Shown: positions 4,714-15,151 of the stretch, one piece after another
Position numbering within the stretch: position 1 is the first letter of the stretch
How the letters are laid out: each line of letters opens with the position of its first letter
NCBI RefSeq assembly: GCF_001723305.1
Contig: NZ_LPWF01000027.1
Coordinates: 62,001 to 126,000, forward strand
Length of the DNA: 64,000 nucleotides
From: Methyloceanibacter superfactus
GTDB taxonomy: Bacteria > Pseudomonadota > Alphaproteobacteria > Rhizobiales > Methyloligellaceae
Direction: 5' to 3'
Translations under genes and position numbers: made by a program
Notes under the pieces: model-generated
What the model was told of the DNA's origin: nothing
Seen by the model: only the letters and a program-made list of their open reading frames with translations
The model's database searches: none

Positions 4714-4739
4714 GGAACTTGCGTGTACGTCCGCGCGTT
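4714..4739 (+). promoter_or_regulatory. EcfG (general stress sigma) promoter of csbD
   Basis: GGAAC at 4714-4718 and CGTT at 4736-4739 are separated by exactly 17 bases. This is a perfect match to the EcfG consensus GGAAC-N16/17-CGTT. It lies 67 bases upstream of the csbD-like start codon and points toward it. The ecfG gene itself is 1.9 kb downstream. Confidence 0.75.
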
Positions 4740-4805: not shown

Positions 4806-5003
4806 ATGAATTGGGATCGAGTCGAAGGCAATTGGAAGCAACTTACCGGCAAGGCGCAGCAGCAGTGGGGCAAGCTCACCAACGACGACCTGGACCAGGT
4901 CGAAGGCCGCCGCACGGAACTGGTGGGCAAGATCCAGGAGCGCTACGGCGTTGCCAAGGACGAAGCCGAGAAGCAGGTCGATACCTGGCTCCAGAATATG
5001 TAA
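4806..5003 (+). CDS. CsbD family stress protein
   Basis: This 65-residue protein begins MNWDRVEGNWKQLTGKAQQQ and continues with the family pattern WGKLTNDDL and VEGRRTELVGKIQERYG. CsbD-like proteins are small, highly charged, helical, and induced by general stress; their molecular role is not settled. A perfect EcfG promoter stands directly upstream and AAAGGGAG acts as the ribosome-binding site, so this gene is a confident member of the local stress regulon. Confidence 0.93.
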   Translation: MNWDRVEGNWKQLTGKAQQQWGKLTNDDLDQVEGRRTELVGKIQERYGVAKDEAEKQVDTWLQNM

Positions 5004-5331: not shown

Positions 5332-6118
5332 TCGCGCAAGCTCGCGCGACGCTCGAAGAACAGCGCCTGGGACACGATCGCCTTCACGGTATCGGGCTGA
5401 TACGGTTGGTGATGAGAAAGGCCGGCTCGGGCCGCTCGCCCGTCAACAGCCGGTCGGGATAGGCGGTGATGAAGATCACCGGCACTTGGAACAACGCCAG
5501 CATCTCGTTGACGGCGTCGAGGCCTGAGCTGCCATCGGCAAGCTGAATGTCGGCGAGCACCAGACCGGGCTTGCTGTTCTCCACCGCGCGGACAGCTTCC
5601 TTATGCGTGCGCGCGACACCGGCCACGCGATGGCCGAGCCCCTCCACGATGCTTTCGAGATCCATGGCGATCATCGGCTCATCCTCGATGATGAGCACAT
5701 CGGTGGCGACCTGCGCGGCAATCTCCCGCCCCGCGGCATCGATCAGCGCTTCGGCATTGTCCACCGTGGTGTTGAGAATGATGGCGGTCTCGTCCGGGGT
5801 GAAGCCTTCCACGGAGCTGAGCAGGAAGGCCTGCCGGGGCAACGGCGTGATCTGCTCGAGCTTGCGGTCCACGGGCGTCGTACCGCCCTGGAACGCTTCC
5901 GGTTTCAGGTTGATGCCGACGGAATTCCAAAGTCCCAGGAAGGTCCGGTAGAGCGCGATGCGCGGATCGAGATTGTCGTCAAACAGCGACGAATCCTCGG
6001 CCAGGACCTCTAAGGTGGCCGCCACATAGGCGTCGCCGGCGGCTTGGGTTCCCGCCAGGGCACGGGCAAACCGGCGAAGGTAGGGCAGATGAGGCGCGAT
6101 CGTTTTCGACAACGACAT
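5310..6118 (-). CDS. phyR: PhyR anti-anti-sigma response regulator (one indel near the C-terminus)
   Basis: PhyR controls the general stress response of Alphaproteobacteria. When phosphorylated it binds NepR and frees EcfG. The N-terminal half (residues 1-135) is the sigma-factor-like domain (PYLRRFARALAGTQAAGDAYV, then GFTPDETAIILNTT). The C-terminal half is a receiver with acidic EDEP, the phospho-accepting Asp in LVLADIQLADG and the Thr switch in VIFITAYPD. After AFLIT the frame breaks. One missing G (AAG to AA) restores KPYQPDTVKAIVSQALFFER and a stop at 5310-5312. The break is probably a sequence error. The gene is divergent from nepR-ecfG. Confidence 0.93.
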
Positions 6119-6351: not shown

Positions 6352-6593
6352 GTGGAACGAAACGATAAAAAGAAGGCCAGCAGGCGAATGACGCTAACGC
6401 CAGTAAAGAGCGCGCCACATCCCCCGCCCCCAAGGCGAGACCGGGTGGCGCGGCAGCGGACGGCATGTCCCCTGCCCTGCAGGCCCATATCGGACGCCAA
6501 GTTCGCGCGATGTTCGATGAAGTGGCCGAAGAGCCAATTCCCGATCACCTGCTGCGCTTGCTCAAGGAACTCGACCAAAGCGGAGAGAAGTGA
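6352..6593 (+). CDS. nepR: NepR anti-sigma factor (one missing base)
   Basis: NepR holds EcfG inactive until phosphorylated PhyR takes it away. The diagnostic core is clear near the end: LQAHIGRQVRAMFDEVAEEP followed by IPDHLLRLLKELD, ending at TGA 6591-6593. The core frame is open only from ATG 6465. The well-placed AGGAG at 6342-6346 precedes a GTG at 6352 in another frame. The span 6352-6593 is one base short of whole codons, and the C-runs at 6421-6430 are the likely place of a lost base. Restored, the protein has about 80 residues, normal for NepR. ecfG starts one base after its stop. Confidence 0.85.
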
Positions 6594-6594
6594 T

Positions 6595-7125
6595 TTGCCG
6601 CGGAACGTCTCCCAAAACCTGAGAGAGTCCCTCGTGGCACAGATCGGCAGCCTTCGGGCGTTCGCCGTGTCCTTGTGCGGCGACCGGGACCGCGCCGACG
6701 ATCTCGTTCAGGAAACCCTGTTCAAGGCGTGGAACCACCTGGATTCCTTCAAGGAAGGCACGAACCTGAAGGCGTGGCTGTTCACCATCCTGCGCAACAC
6801 TTATTTCTCCGAACGGCGCAAACGGAAGCGCGAGGTCGAGGATGCCGACGGCAAATATGCCGCCCGCCTCGCCAGTCGTCCGGCGCAGCCCGGCCACATG
6901 GACATGCAGGACTTCCAGGCCGCGCTGGTGCAATTGCCGGACGATCAGCGCGAGGCCTTAGTCCTTGTCGGCGCGGCAGGCTTCTCCTACGAGGAAGCGG
7001 CGGAAGTGTCCGGTTGTGCCGTGGGCACCATCAAGAGCCGGGTCAATCGCGCCCGAAACCGTCTCGCCGATATGCTCGAGCTCGAAGCGGCCGAGGACGG
7101 GACGCCCAAAGCCAAGATCGCTTGA
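6595..7125 (+). CDS. ecfG: EcfG-type general stress sigma factor
   Basis: EcfG is the extracytoplasmic-function sigma factor that transcribes the general stress regulon from GGAAC/CGTT promoters. The 176-residue protein contains sigma region 2 (DRADDLVQETLFKAW, then FKEGTNLKAWLFTILRNTYF) and region 4 (LPDDQREALVLVGAAGFSYE, then GTIKSRVNRARNRL). I place the start at the TTG at 6595, one base after the nepR stop, because GGAGAGAAG precedes it and the sequence then aligns with typical EcfG N-termini. The frame is open further upstream only because it overlaps nepR. It is translationally coupled to nepR. Confidence 0.93.
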   Translation: MPRNVSQNLRESLVAQIGSLRAFAVSLCGDRDRADDLVQETLFKAWNHLDSFKEGTNLKAWLFTILRNTYFSERRKRKREVEDADGKYAARLASRPAQPGHMDMQDFQAALVQLPDDQREALVLVGAAGFSYEEAAEVSGCAVGTIKSRVNRARNRLADMLELEAAEDGTPKAKIA

Positions 7126-8185: not shown

Positions 8186-8440
8186 ATGAAGACGCTCTCA
8201 CCCGCCGAGCTCGATCAAGCCAAACTCGATCCGGGCTCCGTGTTCGAGCGACCGGACGAGGTCCTCGCCGCGTCTTTGACTGCGGACGACAAGAAAACCA
8301 TCTTGCTGCGCTGGGAAGAGGACGCCGAGGATCTGATGCGGGCCACGGGGGAAGGCATGCCGCCTGAGGACAATCGCCGCACGCCGGCGGAGCTGCTGCG
8401 CGCGGTGCAGGCGGCCTTGGCGCAGCTTGCCGCTGCTTAG
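8186..8440 (+). CDS. Conserved hypothetical protein (84 aa)
   Basis: The protein begins MKTLSPAELDQAKLDPGSVF and contains ADDKKTILLRWEEDAED in its middle, followed by a helical, Ala/Leu-rich end. Short acidic proteins with this layout are common in Hyphomicrobiales, but I know no function. It has no signal peptide or membrane segment. GGAGG lies upstream of the chosen ATG. It stands divergent from the AEC permease and 100 bases before an EcfG-controlled gene, so a stress link is possible. Confidence 0.7.
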   Translation: MKTLSPAELDQAKLDPGSVFERPDEVLAASLTADDKKTILLRWEEDAEDLMRATGEGMPPEDNRRTPAELLRAVQAALAQLAAA

Positions 8441-8472
8441 AAATTTATCTTTGCAAATCCTTAGGTTACTGC

Positions 8473-8497
8473 GGAACCCTTCCGGTCTTTGTGCGTT
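8473..8497 (+). promoter_or_regulatory. EcfG promoter of the 58-residue membrane protein
   Basis: GGAAC at 8473-8477 and CGTT at 8494-8497 are separated by exactly 16 bases, a perfect EcfG consensus. It lies 46 bases before the ATG at 8543, on the same strand, in the gap after the preceding gene. Confidence 0.75.
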
Positions 8498-8542
8498 TGC
8501 CAATAACACATCCGAACATTCCCAAAAGAACGGAGGTTACCC

Positions 8543-8719
8543 ATGGCAACGACCAAGTTCGACGTGGCCGGCGAGCCGCACACCGAGGTCACGACCACAG
8601 AAGCCCGTCAGGCAACCCATGCCGGGATGATTTGGGTGCTCGGCATCTCTCTGGCGCTCGCCGTCGCCGCCGGTCTGGCGTTGGGATTCGGCTGGATTAC
8701 GCTCCCCTGGGCCGCCTGA
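8543..8719 (+). CDS. Small membrane protein under EcfG control (58 aa)
   Basis: The protein has a hydrophilic N-terminal half rich in Thr/Glu (residues 1-27) and one membrane segment (about 30-52, GMIWVLGISLALAVAAGLAL). It ends with FGWITLPWAA. CGGAGG lies 6 bases before the ATG. It is of unknown function. The perfect EcfG promoter upstream assigns it to the general stress regulon. Its size and single membrane span resemble many small envelope stress proteins. Confidence 0.8.
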   Translation: MATTKFDVAGEPHTEVTTTEARQATHAGMIWVLGISLALAVAAGLALGFGWITLPWAA

Positions 8720-8787
8720 CCCCTTGATGTTCGGGCCCGGAAGACAAATCTCTAAGGTTCTGGTTCCCGACATGATGGGGATGAACC

Positions 8788-9306
8788 GTGGGATTCCGTC
8801 TTGGCCATTTCAGCGCCGTGCTCGTCGCGGCCACGCTTGCGTTGAGCGCGGGCTCCGCGTTGGCCAAGCCGGCGGACTCGCAAGAGGATCCCGCGTCTTC
8901 CCAGTTCGAGAGCCTGGCTTCTAGATTGAAGGCCGGAACCGAGCGGGCGCTAGATGCGGCCAGCGACGCCGCGGCCCGCGCCGTGGATGCAAGCAAGGGC
9001 GCCATCGCCGAGACGGAAACCGATCTCGGCCCGCGGCTCGAAACTTTCCGTCAAATGTTAAACGACCAGAAAGCCAAGCTGGCCATGATCGGCGAGGACG
9101 CGGTTGACCGCTTCGACGCGTGGAAGCAAGCGGCCACGGACTCTTGGTCCGAGATATGGTCCGACACGCGGACCAAGTCTTGGACTCAAACTTTTACCCA
9201 GTCCTGGACCGAGTTCCGCCGCGCGGCCACCGAAGCGCTCGACCGGTTCCGTGACTGGATCGCCGATCAGCCTAAGAGCGACGATTATACTGAGACCCCC
9301 GTTTGA
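8788..9306 (+). CDS. Exported helical protein of unknown function
   Basis: This 172-residue protein starts at a GTG and has a clear Sec signal peptide (VLVAATLALSAGSALA, cleavage after about residue 26). The mature part is a long amphipathic helix rich in Ala, Asp and Arg. Residues 112-160 contain a run of Trp-containing repeats (TDSWSEIW, TKSWTQTF, TQSWTEF, RDWIAD) spaced about 8-11 residues apart. I recognise no family. It follows the EcfG-controlled membrane protein and precedes another helical protein, so it may be part of an envelope stress set. Confidence 0.75.
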   Translation: MGFRLGHFSAVLVAATLALSAGSALAKPADSQEDPASSQFESLASRLKAGTERALDAASDAAARAVDASKGAIAETETDLGPRLETFRQMLNDQKAKLAMIGEDAVDRFDAWKQAATDSWSEIWSDTRTKSWTQTFTQSWTEFRRAATEALDRFRDWIADQPKSDDYTETPV

Positions 9307-9329
9307 ACTCCCTTGGAAAGAGACCCGAG

Positions 9330-9794
9330 ATGACCGACACCCCCAAGACTGAACAGGCCGACAAAGAGTGGGCCGACCTGCAGCGCGATCTCGACACGCT
9401 GGGCGATCAGCTCGGCAGCCTGCGCGAGCACACCGCCGCCCTCGGCGACACGATGATCGCCAATCTGGAAGCGCGCTATCAGGACGTGAGAAACAAGAGC
9501 CTGAGCTACCGCAACGCCACCGAGGCGCAGTTCGAGGCCATTCGTCAGATGGCACTGGAGCAGGCGGCAGCCACCCAGAGCACGTTGACGGAGACGGCCA
9601 TGAAGTCCGCCGAGATGGCCAAGGAAACCACGCGCCAGGCGTGGGAACGGGCCGAGCCGTTGCGTCAAGGCGCGCAGGAGGTCGGCAAGGGCTTCGTCCG
9701 CGCTTGGTCCGAGCTCGCCGCCTCGTTCGGCAAGGCCGCCACCAAGATCCAGTCGACGGAGAAGCCCGGCGAAGAGGGCCACAAGCCCGGCTAA
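9330..9794 (+). CDS. Cytoplasmic coiled-coil protein of unknown function
   Basis: This 154-residue protein has no signal peptide and is predicted helical throughout, with heptad-like stretches (WADLQRDLDTLGDQLGSLRE, then AQFEAIRQMALEQAAATQ). A basic, Pro/Lys-containing tail ends it. It resembles phasin-like or apolipoprotein-like helical proteins in general character, but no motif allows a firm call. It starts 24 bases after the exported helical protein and a strong terminator follows, so the two probably form one transcription unit. Confidence 0.7.
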   Translation: MTDTPKTEQADKEWADLQRDLDTLGDQLGSLREHTAALGDTMIANLEARYQDVRNKSLSYRNATEAQFEAIRQMALEQAAATQSTLTETAMKSAEMAKETTRQAWERAEPLRQGAQEVGKGFVRAWSELAASFGKAATKIQSTEKPGEEGHKPG

Positions 9795-9836
9795 GGCATT
9801 TTCGAGCAACACGTTTAAAGAACGCACACCGAACAG

Positions 9837-9866
9837 TGCCCGGGTCGAAAGGCCCGGGCATTTTCT
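9837..9866 (+). terminator. Rho-independent terminator
   Basis: The 8-bp stem TGCCCGGG (9837-9844) pairs with CCCGGGCA (9853-9860) around an 8-base loop, followed by TTTTCTTT. It ends the transcription unit of helical proteins. It also sits just beyond the stop of the convergent pabBC gene. Confidence 0.85.
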
Positions 9867-9872
9867 TTGCCG

Positions 9873-11700
9873 TCAGCCCGCGTGCGCCGGCGCGCAGGCG
9901 TCCGTTTCAGCCGGCTGCATCAGCTCGGCCCGGATCAGGCCGCGCACCGAGTTGCGAGATAGAGGCGGTCGGCGCGGGCGAGATCGGCCGGCGTCAGCAC
10001 CGCTTCGCTCGCCGCCGCGCGCGGCAGGTCCAGCAGCTCCTCGCGGAGCGTGCCGGGCAGGAGGCCGCAGGCCAGCGCCGGGGTGAACAAGCGGCCGTCC
10101 TGCTCGAGGAACAGCGTCGTGCGCGTCCCTTCCGTCAATTCGCCGCGCTGATTGAGGAACACGACCTCGTCGCATCCGGTGAGCGCTTTTTGCCGCTCCA
10201 TCTCCTTGTCGTAGAACTGCCGCCGCGTCGTCTTGTGGTAGAAGAGCGGGTCCTTCTCGTCCACGCGCTGATCGGAAATCACGAAGCGCCACACCGTGTC
10301 CTTGGTGGGCAGCGTGATCTCGGTCGACGTCACGGTGATGGCGCCGTCCTCGGCGAGCAGCAGCCTGACCAGCGCCACCGGCGCGGCGATCGCGGCGGCT
10401 TGCGCCTCCAGTGCGGCGATCACCGCCTCGCGCGAGAAGGGATAGCCGAAATGATGGGCCGAGGCCTGTAGCCGGGCCAAATGCCGCTCCAGGAGATGGA
10501 ACCCCTCCCCCTTTTCGTAGCGCAAGGTCTCGATCAGCTCGAACGGCGCGTCGATCTTGGTAAGGAAGTGCGCCTTGAGCAGACACTCCTCATATTCCGA
10601 CTCCTCCTTGGAGTCGGCGACGATGCCGCCGCCGATACCCATCTCGCCGCCGGTCTCGTCGAGCACCACGGTGCGGATGGCGACGTTGAACTGGGCGTCA
10701 CCCGTCGGCGCGATATGGCCGATGGCGCCGGTATAGATGCCACGGTCCTCGCCCTCGAGCTCGCGGATGATCTCCATGGCGCGCACCTTCGGCGCCCCGG
10801 TGACCGAGCCGCACGGGAACAGCGCCCTGAGCATGTCTCGTAGCCCCATGTCGGAGCGCAGCTCCGCGGTGATCCCCGAGGTCATCTGATGCACCGAGCG
10901 GTAGGTCTCCACGGTGAACAGATCGGTGACCTCGACGGAGCCGATCCGCGACACCCGGCCGAGATCGTTGCGCAGCAAATCGACGATCATCAAATTCTCG
11001 GCGCGCTGCTTCTCGTCCATAGCGAGCCACGTCTTGAGGCGGGCATCCTCGCGCGGCGTGCGGCCGCGCGGCGCCGTCCCCTTCATGGGCCGCGCCGACA
11101 TATGCTGGCCGTCGCGGCGGAAGAACAGCTCCGGCGACAGCGACAACACATGAAGGTCCGGCGTCGCGATGAGGCCGCCATAGGCGACGCGCTGCTTGCG
11201 GCGCAAGCCGGCATAGAGCGCCGTGGGATCGCCCTCGAAGTCGAAGTGGAATTTCTGGGTGAGATTGATCTGGTAGACGTCGCCCGCGGTGATGAAGTCC
11301 TTCACCGCGGCGAAGGCGGCGGCATATTCCTCGCGCGACCAGGACAGTCTGAGATTGGAGATCTTGGCGCGCTCGCCCCCGCCATTGTCATCGAGCCAGG
11401 TGCGAGTCTCGCCGTCGTTGAAGGAACGCGGCGCCTTGAACAGGCCGATCCAGAATAACGGCGTGCGGCGCGTCTCGGGCAACAGGTGCCGCAGCTTGGG
11501 CTCGAGGCAATAGCCGAGCTCGTAGGCGAAGTAGCCGGCGGCATGGAGCCGCGCGCGAGACCGTCTGAGACCTTCTGGAGTGCTGATTCGACCTCGGCGG
11601 GATCGTTGACGGTGACGACCTCTTCCGGCGCGGCGAAGAGCAGGCTGCGGCCGCCCGGCGTCAGGCTATCGTCGAGAAGCACATATGGCAGATCAGTCAT
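9873..11700 (-). CDS. pabB: Aminodeoxychorismate synthase PabB fused to aminodeoxychorismate lyase (two indels)
   Basis: The N-terminal part is PabB (chorismate-binding), with DVYQINLTQKFHFDFEG, MKGTAPRGRTPREDA, LRNDLGRVS and GSVTGAPK. The C-terminal part is a PLP-fold IV lyase (PabC) with FHLLERHLARLQ and EGTRTTLFLE. Together they make p-aminobenzoate from chorismate and an ammonia source. Two single-base losses split the frame. Near 11550 GGC-CTC has become GGC-TC. Near 9957 GGC-AAC has become GC-AAC; restoring it gives GNSVRGLIRAEL to the stop at 9873. pABA is the precursor of H4MPT, and the gene lies 105 bases downstream of fhcC on the same strand. Confidence 0.9.
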
Positions 11701-11805: not shown

Positions 11806-12609
11806 TTAGGCGAGGATCAGCATCTCGCCTTTGCCGAGCACGGCCATGTCGCCCATGAGACGGCGGGCGCGGTCGCCGAGCCGGATGCGGATGTCTTGGT
11901 CGCGGAGCCATTTCTCCAGCAGGCGGAGATAATCGAACTCCATGACGCCGCAATCGCTGAAGGTGGGCAGGATGTCCTTGGGCTTCTCCATGAAGATGAG
12001 GCTGCCGCGGCGGTTGCCATAGCCGGCGTAGCGGCCGGCGCCGCGCTGAGCACGAGCGTGCCGGCAATCATGCGGCCGCCGGCATAGTCGCCCGCCTTGC
12101 CGCCGACGACCACGAGGCCCGCGACGCATGCGTTCGCCGAGCAGCGCGCCAGTATCGCCGCCGACGGTGACGAAGCCGCCCTTCATGCCCATGGTCTCGC
12201 CCAAGGCCACGCCGCAGGCTTGCGCGCCCACATTGCGGCGAATGGTGATCTCGCCGCCGGCCATGCTGGCGGCGGCAAGCACGCCGGCGCTTCCGGTCAC
12301 GCCGATCTTGCCGGACTTCATGCGCGCGCCGAGAGAGGCGCCCGCGTCGCCGTCGACGAAAATCGCGCCGCCCTCGAGCTCGGCGCCGATCTTGTCGCAA
12401 CGCTCGTCGGTGCCGACGAAGTGGATGTTCTGCGCGTCCTTGCCCTTCACCTTGAAGGCGTCGCCCACGGTGAGCGTTTCGCGCGTGGTGCCGATCGACA
12501 CCGCCTCGATGTCCTTGCGGCTCATGCCAGCTAGCCGCGCGGGCACCAGCGGCGACAGGTCGAGCCGCTGGCCGGGCGTGTCTTTCAGCTCGAAGATCAG
12601 CGCGCTCAC
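11806..12609 (-). CDS. fhcC: Formyltransferase/hydrolase complex subunit C (two indels)
   Basis: FhcC is a structural subunit of the bacterial formyltransferase/hydrolase complex, which moves the formyl group from H4MPT to methylofuran and releases formate. The protein (about 267 residues) shows the beta-helix GXXGXXXG pattern of glutamate-synthase alpha-C-like domains (GGAIFVDGDAGASLGARMKS, VGGDTGALLGERM). The start is a GTG at 12609 overlapping the fhcD TGA (GTGA). An extra G near 12118 and a lost base near 12045 shift a short stretch out of frame and back. Confidence 0.9.
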   Translation of the reverse strand: MSALIFELKDTPGQRLDLSPLVPARLAGMSRKDIEAVSIGTTRETLTVGDAFKVKGKDAQNIHFVGTDERCDKIGAELEGGAIFVDGDAGASLGARMKSGKIGVTGSAGVLAAASMAGGEITIRRNVGAQACGVALGETMGMKGGFVTVGGDTGALLGERMRRGPRGRRRQGGRLCRRPHDCRHARAQRGAGRYAGYGNRRGSLIFMEKPKDILPTFSDCGVMEFDYLRLLEKWLRDQDIRIRLGDRARRLMGDMAVLGKGEMLILA

Positions 12610-13514
12610 CCGACGATCTCCTTCAGGTGGAAGTGATGGGGGCCAAGATTGCCGCCGTAATTGCCGGCGGTGATATGGGTGACACCTTCCCGCGCACCGC
12701 CCTTGGCGATGGCGTGAATGCCCGCATGCATCGCCTTGTGGATGGCCTCGGCGGTCAGGCCGTCGATGACGATCTCCAGCACCGCTTCCACGTTGAGCGG
12801 CAGCTCCGATTTCACCGCGCCCTTCAGGCTCGGGCAATAGGCGTCGTTGGTCGAGGCGATCTGGCCCTTATATTTCGAGCCGACCTTAGAGCCGGAGCGC
12901 ACGATGCCGCCGGGGAACGGGGTAATGACGTCGGGCAGTTCGGCCATGGCCTTCACCGCGCGGGTGCAGGCAGCGAGCACGGCCGCATGAGTCTTGCCGA
13001 GCACCAGAAGATTGCCGCCGCCGACCGCTTTCTTGGTCAGCCCCGTCTTGTCCTCGCAGACGAACTCACCGTCCATGACGGGAATGCGCCAATAACGCTT
13101 GCCGCCGAGCACTTTCGACATCTGCCAGCCGTCGCCGAAGAACCGGAGCGACGAACCTAGCTTCAGCGATTTCTCGCCTTCGAGCCCGGCAAAGCAGGCC
13201 GAGCCGGGACTGGTCAGCACGCATTGGCCGACGCGGTTCCTGAGCTGCGTCTGGAGCTTGTCGGCATTCATGGTGAACAGCAGCACGGCGACGCCGGGGC
13301 GCCCGTCGGGGGTTTCTTTCCGCGACAGCGTGCGCTCGATGCCGGCCTCGGCTCCGCAGGCGATCACCGAGGTGGCGAAACCGGTCATGGTGCGCGCCGA
13401 GATCAGCGCCCATTCCATGGTGGGCGCCGTGATGATGATCCGCGTGCCGACCATGGGAAAGGCCTCGGCAAACGTTTCGATAATGGTGACGCCTTTGACT
13501 TTTAGCTCTGCCAT
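12606..13514 (-). CDS. fhcD: Formylmethanofuran:H4MPT formyltransferase subunit D
   Basis: FhcD (Ftr) transfers the formyl group between H4MPT and methylofuran. The 302-residue length is typical. Recognisable stretches are IIETFAEAFPMVGTRIIITA at the start, CVLTSPGSACFAGLE in the middle and GAREGVTHITAGNYGGNLGP near the end. I start it at ATG 13514 from family length. In the given sequence the frame is also open upstream into fhcA without a stop, probably because of an inserted base at the end of fhcA. Its TGA overlaps the fhcC GTG. Confidence 0.93.
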   Translation of the reverse strand: MAELKVKGVTIIETFAEAFPMVGTRIIITAPTMEWALISARTMTGFATSVIACGAEAGIERTLSRKETPDGRPGVAVLLFTMNADKLQTQLRNRVGQCVLTSPGSACFAGLEGEKSLKLGSSLRFFGDGWQMSKVLGGKRYWRIPVMDGEFVCEDKTGLTKKAVGGGNLLVLGKTHAAVLAACTRAVKAMAELPDVITPFPGGIVRSGSKVGSKYKGQIASTNDAYCPSLKGAVKSELPLNVEAVLEIVIDGLTAEAIHKAMHAGIHAIAKGGAREGVTHITAGNYGGNLGPHHFHLKEIVG

Positions 13515-15151
13515 GTCATCTCGACGTTGGGATCGCCGCGAAGCGTCGCGGCGGGTGGTGACGGCGTCGGAAACGCCGAACCAGGACGGATCGACGCCAT
13601 AATAGCGGTCGTAGAAGGTTTTTACGCGCTTCTCAATCTGCGCGTCAAAACCAGGCTCGACGTGATAACAGCGGCCATAGGTTACGCGCACGACCTTGCC
13701 TTTGCGCACCACGAGCTCGCCCGACTTGAACACCAAATCGGCGGCGGAGAACATCGCCGTCTTGTTTTTCTGCTCAGCATAGACGGCAATGTCGGCGATG
13801 GCGCCGGGCGCCAAATGACCGCGGTCGGTGAGGCCAAGCAGCTTGGCCGGCGCGGCGCGGGTGATGACGGCGAGCTCGGACAGGGTCAGCTCGCGGGTGA
13901 TCCCGGCGAGATTGGATACCTCCCGCGAGGCCTCGGGTAGATCGTCGAGCCAGCGGGCGCGCTCGTCCTTGTCCATGAGCAGGTGAAAGATTTCCGGATA
14001 GCGCACGAACAGCGCGCCGTTCGGATGGTCGGTCGAGAACAGCACGCGCCAGGGATCTTCGGCCATGAGGAAGATCTCGAGACCGATGGCCCATTGCAGC
14101 GCGTTGACGAAGCTCTTGGGCTTGTAGTTGTAAGGCACCACGCCGGTGCCGTTGCCGTCGCCCTGATTGAGCGCCCATTTCTTCGGGCTCGCGGCGTGGC
14201 GTCCGTCGAACTGGCGCAGAATGTCGCCGGAGATGGTGATGGTCTGGCCGAACATCACCTGGCCGACGTCGACGGAGGCGTTCTTGTGCTTGTTCACCGC
14301 CTCCATGAGACGCGGCGCGCCGGATGAGAAGCCGCGATCGCCGCCGTCGCCATACCCGTAGAACTGGATGTGGGCGAAGTGAATGGGCAGGCTTTGCGTC
14401 GCCTCGAGCGTGGCGACCGCAGTCTCCACGTTGCCGGCGATGCCGAGATTGTTGCAGTGAACATGGGGCGGATGCGGCACGCCGAGACCGGCCACCGCGT
14501 TCTGCATCGCCTCGACGATGGCGCGGGATGACACGCCGTAGTCCGGCACCTCGTCGTCGAGACCGAATTTGCGGTCGTTGAACTTGAGGCCTCCGAGCCG
14601 CCGGCATTGATGACCTTGAGGCCGAGCGCCTTGGAGTGATGCAGGGTCCAGGCGACATAATCCTTCAGCTCGTCGCCGCCGCCGCGTCCGTCGCGCAACA
14701 GCTCGAGCGTGTAGTCGTCATTGCCGAGAATGACGAGCCCGGCCACGTCGATGATCGGGATCGCGGCGAGCGCGATCTGCGCCTCGATGGCGTGGGTCGG
14801 GATCATCGCCGGCTCGATGACTGTGGTGTAGCCCATCTCGGCATAGCGAATGCCGGTGGCATAGGCCCCCCATGAGGCCGGCGACGGCGCGATCGGCTGC
14901 CCGTCTTGGGCGGCGAGCGCCGGCAGCTCGGGCATCAGCTGGCGGCCAAGGGTGACGTTGGAACCGGCGATATGGGAGTGCACGTCGATGGCGCCGGCCA
15001 TGACGATCTTGCCGCGGATATCGTAGACCTCGTCCGGCGTGCGGCCTTCCGGCGCGGCGACGATGCGGCCGTCCTCGATGAAGAGATCGCCGACGCTGTC
15101 GCGGTTGTTGGCCGGATCGATGATGCGGCCGCCTCTCAGCTCGATGAGCAT
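13502..15151 (-). CDS. fhcA: Formyltransferase/hydrolase complex subunit A (indels)
   Basis: FhcA is the amidohydrolase-fold subunit that hydrolyses formylmethanofuran to formate. The N-terminus has the metal-binding DVHSHIAG near residue 55, then HVHCNNLG, and STDHPNGALF later. One T is lost near 14590 (GCC-TTC-AAG read as GCC-TCA), splitting the gene. Near the end a one-base shift (probably an extra T in GCTTCG) would give a TAA at 13502-13504 overlapping fhcD by 13 bases. The start ATG overlaps the fhcB TGA (ATGA). Total restored length is about 549 residues. Confidence 0.92.

Follow-up and report, generated by a model that had tools for sequence, protein, structure and literature searches.

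A small-protein gene cassette beside phyR and nepR-ecfG in Methyloceanibacter, with an EcfG site and a second promoter-like element

EcfG regulons include many small proteins without assigned function, and the cassette described here, three genes that we call g1, g2 and g3, adjoins the core genes of this general stress response in Methyloceanibacter superfactus. The sequence GGAAC-N16-CGTT upstream of g1 agrees with the EcfG consensus of R. etli (PMC3892343). A second point of comparison for g2 and g3 is Sll1863, a general stress protein of Synechocystis that ranks among the most salt-induced and abundant stress proteins and has no assigned molecular function (PMC8670252, PMC6789579); inactivation of sll1862/sll1863 reportedly produced no salt-sensitive phenotype (PMC8670252). 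For heat-shock promoters, the published RpoH1 consensus reads CTTGAA-N15-16-CCTATAT (PMC4843759). Finally, small general-stress proteins such as CsbD and those of the DUF3309 type are, like the products of g1-g3, small, encoded at a stress locus and devoid of an enzymatic domain, but no sequence relation to g1-g3 was found. Among the papers listed by our literature searches none described the g1-g2-g3 set; the initial annotation of this DNA, which knew of no such system, was right about the set, whereas its components look like stress proteins of familiar kinds.

The window analysed is a stretch of 64,000 nucleotides from contig NZ_LPWF01000027.1. In its coordinates, the features of the locus are the following:

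8186..8440, plus strand: conserved 84-aa open reading frame between ecfG and g1, with the motif DKKxILxRWExDAExLxRATEEGM
8473..8497, plus strand: EcfG promoter of g1, a perfect match to GGAAC-N16-CGTT
8543..8719, plus strand: g1, membrane protein of 58 aa with a single span, TEARQG family
8723..8751, plus strand: promoter-like element CTTGAT-N16-CAAATCT, a candidate own promoter of g2-g3 by its conservation, RpoH-like -35 and spacing
8788..9306, plus strand: g2, 172-aa predicted exported helical protein with a GTG start and a Trp-rich C-terminal half
9330..9794, plus strand: g3, 154-aa predicted cytoplasmic long-helix (coiled-coil) protein, found genus-wide
9835..9862, plus strand: intrinsic terminator of 12 pairs after g3, ahead of the convergent pabB

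The core general stress response genes phyR (5384-6118, minus strand) and nepR with ecfG (within 6352-7125) lie beside the cassette. Three same-strand genes, the perfect EcfG site and the terminator reported in the initial annotation are all present in the sequence, and its predictions of a 58-aa single-span protein, an exported Trp-repeat protein and a cytoplasmic helical protein stand. The set had been drawn from 8186, thereby taking in the separate 84-aa gene; this reading frame ends upstream of the EcfG site and hence falls outside that promoter's transcript, leaving the three downstream genes. It matches no Pfam or NCBIfam family, and in G001, G009, G012, G015 and G016 it likewise separates ecfG from the cassette. 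No terminator separates g1, g2 and g3, the first being located 3' of g3, where strong hairpins with differing stem sequences hold the same position in seven relatives. The three reading frames are under purifying selection, with dN/dS of about 0.1-0.5 in most pairs and up to about 0.8 in the most divergent g2 pairs. Elsewhere at the locus, a CsbD gene (4806-5003) with its own perfect EcfG site (4714-4739) is followed by a DUF3309 gene; both are ordinary members of a general stress locus.

The EcfG site reads GGAACCCTTCCGGTCTTTGTGCGTT and the ATG of g1 lies 70 nt downstream. A single perfect match is weak evidence, because the pattern is not enriched genome-wide (62 matches in the own genome against 77 for the reversed control); we therefore dropped the genome-wide count as evidence and turned to conservation. 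A perfect site stands about 60-100 nt ahead of the g1 start in all four intact copies at the locus (G000, G009, G012 and G016), and it is this recurrence that gives the site weight and upholds the stress control proposed in the initial annotation. By sequence, g1 thus shows what marks EcfG regulon members, GGAAC-N16/17-CGTT at a conserved upstream distance. In the protein, an EARQ motif precedes one transmembrane span that begins at about WVL (a single hydrophobic span with a mean hydropathy of 2.36), as is characteristic of the TEARQG family; the protein matches no Pfam family. Such g1-type proteins, with EARQ and one span, were found in 28 of the 99 Hyphomicrobiales genera sampled (loci L167-L196, L046 and L047 among them). 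EcfG sites lie upstream of their genes in 13 of 32 stretches, as compared to 6 of 224 length-matched controls (Fisher p 2.5e-9), an excess that holds when the Methyloceanibacter members are removed (p 1.4e-8). To judge from these sequences, TEARQG is an unnamed, widespread Hyphomicrobiales family that is often linked to EcfG and no speciality of the trio; as a candidate general-stress family it merits a study of its own.

The g2 protein begins with a predicted signal peptide (residues 1 to about 26, ending ALA, followed by KP) and continues as a helical body, modelled with low confidence (pLDDT 55). Three Trp residues are invariant among its members, and the Trp repeats quoted in the initial annotation belong to an insertion limited to G000, G002 and G006, which indicates a lineage-specific expansion. 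For g3, the model (pLDDT 80) shows a helix of 100 residues that ends in a break at EPLR, followed by a short second helix, the C-terminal part bearing the conserved motif EPLRQGAQEVGxGxxRAWSExxxSFGKAA; neither a Foldseek search with the model nor a profile search of solved structures gave a PDB match. Weak matches to PF01442 (Apolipoprotein A1/A4/E), a model of amphipathic helices, are found in 13 of 14 g3 members; a score of 17.8 bits stands against a gathering cut-off of 90, and we take the likeness only as a sign of amphipathic helices.

Helical proteins inflate profile scores, matches to the sll1863 family included. Below the cut-off of the corresponding family model, NCBIfam NF052504, matches come from several members of g3 and one of g2, with best E-values of 2e-4 to 4e-4 (0.3-0.6 for the window's own g2 and g3), and no g2 or g3 member attains the curated 35 bits. 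We compared profiles using an alignment built from true sll1863 family members of other Alphaproteobacteria: g2 scored 31.5 and g3 27.8. Of 30 heptad-block shuffles the highest-scoring gave 19.5 for g2 and 21.9 for g3, and reversing the profile gave 17.0 and 15.9, respectively. The likeness exceeds what coiled-coil composition yields, yet g2 and g3 resemble the family and are not members of it. Shared with it are small size, Trp, helices and the association with stress, and its C-terminal pattern AW..L..G.E.AW.DL..A...A..RF recalls RAWSEL..SFGKAA in g3 and the SW/AW pattern of g2; by contrast, g2 is predicted to be exported and g3 carries an additional long helix at its N terminus. Other candidates were set aside. 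Matches of g2 and g3 to Pfam Metal_resist, imelysin, YbgS and DivIVA fell below cut-off and were inconsistent among members, as expected of coiled-coil noise; a solved-structure profile match of g2 to a chimeric helical construct (E 0.007) was taken as chance; a mutual paralogy of g2 and g3 found no support (profile comparison E 0.26); and a search of PHROGs gave nothing useful.

We then considered the distribution of the cassette in 16 other Methyloceanibacter genomes (17 with the own genome). Synteny is constant, running phyR (minus), nepR-ecfG (plus), g3 and pabB (minus), with a minus-strand transporter, the 84-aa gene, g1 and g2 as optional members, in that order, between ecfG and g3. The g3 gene occurs in 15 of the 17 genomes, the two misses being assemblies that are 80-85% complete, and among 297 genomes of the order a profile search found only two weak matches outside the genus; g3 is essentially confined to Methyloceanibacter. 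Seven genomes of the genus carry g2, the six relatives being 29-46% identical to the window's copy, and outside it g2 gives marginal matches only. Intact g1 is present at the locus in four genomes. The conserved order in relatives on which the initial annotation staked its reading is borne out in part: g1-g2-g3 is kept wherever g1 and g2 are present, and neither g2 nor a locus-type g1 was seen without g3 in the genomes of the genus. The members also part company: G009 has g1 and g3 without g2, G002 and G006 have g2 and g3 without g1, and at six fully covered loci (G003, G004, G005, G007, G013 and G014) g3 stands alone, with no EcfG site. The deepest split of the midpoint-rooted g3 tree, which is well supported, has trio genomes on either side; in all probability the trio is ancestral, with members lost since. 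The relatives thus form a natural series of three genes, two genes and g3 alone that separates the parts. This free separation, together with the standing of g1 as a distinct and widespread EcfG-linked family, would suit a reading in which unrelated general-stress genes have gathered near ecfG and share regulation but no joint function. We hold that reading to be on the unlikely side, since g2 was never found without g3 and both resemble one stress-protein family, which favours some shared role of these two.

Alignment of the upstream DNA revealed a strongly conserved sequence, CTTGAT-N16-CAAATCT, in the gap between g1 and g2. In the form CTTGA(T/A)-N16/17-CAAAT(C/G)T it lies ahead of g2 or g3 in 12 of 14 relatives: before g2 where g1 is absent (G002 and G006), before g3 where both are absent, and in G009 as the variant CTTGAA-N17-CAAATCT. 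The G010 copy is probably on another contig, its g3 being at a contig end; in G016 the element is absent from the g1-g2 region, where the gap is about 12 nt. The pattern has a single copy in the own genome, and genus-wide there are 27 matches, not all of them at the locus, against one for the control. As the yardstick for RpoH we took the hsp20 promoters of this genus, with the pattern CTTGAA...CCCATAT; the upstream regions of groES show no clear sites and were not used. Set against the RpoH consensus, the element agrees at five of six positions of the -35, in a spacing of 16 and at four of seven positions of the -10. At 11 of 13 loci, no other site within 300 bp fits the hsp20-based profile better, a test that is partly circular in that the element had been found by its CTTGA. 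The likeness to the promoters of S. meliloti RpoH1 and of hsp20 thus lies in the -35 (CTTGAT against CTTGAA) and the spacing, whereas the -10 differs (CAAATCT or CCAAATGT against CCCATAT or CCTATAT) and the score is lower (2-16, as compared to roughly 20-33 for most genuine hsp20 promoters). We regard 8723-8751 as a promoter candidate with RpoH-like features, the choice of sigma factor being inferred from these sequences. The -10 half, atypical of known sigma factors, and the conservation of an element that is single-locus in the own genome might instead speak for a binding site or leader sequence governing read-through into g2-g3; this we think improbable, because the spacing of the hexamers fits RpoH promoters of the same genus, an Rfam search returned no family for the element, and it precedes g3 even where no same-strand gene lies directly upstream. 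As a separate observation, the g3-only genomes (loci L017 and L019-L023) contain a second near-invariant block, GGGGAATTGTCCTATCGTCACTTGATTGCGCTACGACC, about 60-120 nt upstream of g3; this block is absent from the window and fits no motif that we recognised.

A conserved element of this kind in the g1-g2 gap weakens the initial annotation's claim of a single stress promoter, of which the EcfG site before g1 remains, and g2-g3 lack an EcfG site of their own in G002, G006 and the six g3-only genomes. It also bears on the proposal, made in that annotation, that one EcfG-driven operon supplies a membrane-spanning, a periplasmic and a cytoplasmic partner of an envelope-protecting complex. The invariable gene order, the lack of a terminator between the genes, the probable antiquity of the trio and the G016 locus, where a gap of about 12 nt without the element makes one EcfG transcript likely, would all accord with this proposal, yet they are opposed by the six full loci with g3 alone, the loci lacking g2 (G009) or g1 (G002 and G006), g1-type genes that are widespread without partners, the fast evolution of g2 and the element ahead of g2-g3. 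That g1 and g2 are lost so freely speaks in particular against an obligatory complex. Given the g3-only genomes, the partnerless g1-type genes and the separate element of g2-g3, a three-part complex is not obligatory; we found no evidence that supports one and consider the proposal very improbable.

The best reading, in our view, is that the cassette is an accessory part of the alphaproteobacterial general stress response beside phyR/nepR-ecfG, and that g1, g2 and g3 are probably stress protectants. With that response it shares the GGAAC-N16-CGTT promoter of g1 and the position next to its core genes; it differs in that the most conserved gene, g3, has no EcfG site in six genomes and in that, in the window, g2-g3 lie behind a different element. 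We give about even chances to a fuller version of this reading, in which protectants with amphipathic helices would act at either face of the inner membrane and respond to two stress inputs. Under general stress, EcfG would transcribe g1 and, by read-through, g2 and g3; separate transcription of g2-g3 would start from the second element, possibly through RpoH upon heat or protein damage. The g1 product would be a small inner-membrane stress protein independent of the other two; g2, after its predicted export, and g3, presumably in the cytoplasm, would be amphipathic-helix proteins of an sll1863-like kind. Their Trp/Ala helical faces may bind membranes or unfolding proteins and hold them during stress, in a mode akin to that of LEA-like or phasin-like protectants rather than that of a stoichiometric three-part machine; composition and helix prediction are what suggest this protectant function for g2 and g3. 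The more specific proposal that g2 and g3 are a matched sll1863-like pair guarding both faces of the inner membrane under dual EcfG/heat-shock promoters, with g1 as membrane partner in a genus-specific envelope-stress device, we judge highly improbable. Since the set comes apart in relatives and shows two promoter signals instead of one, we see in the cassette a modest variant of known stress proteins; taken alone, it reveals no new system. The locus also hints that general-stress and heat-shock control may meet here.

The frame of phyR breaks near its end (5384-5420, minus strand), where the open reading frame ends in FLITNRISPIP and a different frame encodes the ending to be expected, YQPDTVKAIVSQALFF; either an assembly error or a real truncation of PhyR would account for this. 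The pabB/aminodeoxychorismate lyase gene is split across frames at both ends (9873-9960 and 11302-11700, minus strand), its open reading frame ending in RLYLATRCAA with NSVRGLIRAEL in another frame. Taken together, the phyR and pabB breaks suggest indel errors in the assembly. At 12606-14549 (minus strand), two formyltransferase/hydrolase subunits, which we take to be of the Fhc type, appear as one fused open reading frame, perhaps owing to a further assembly indel.
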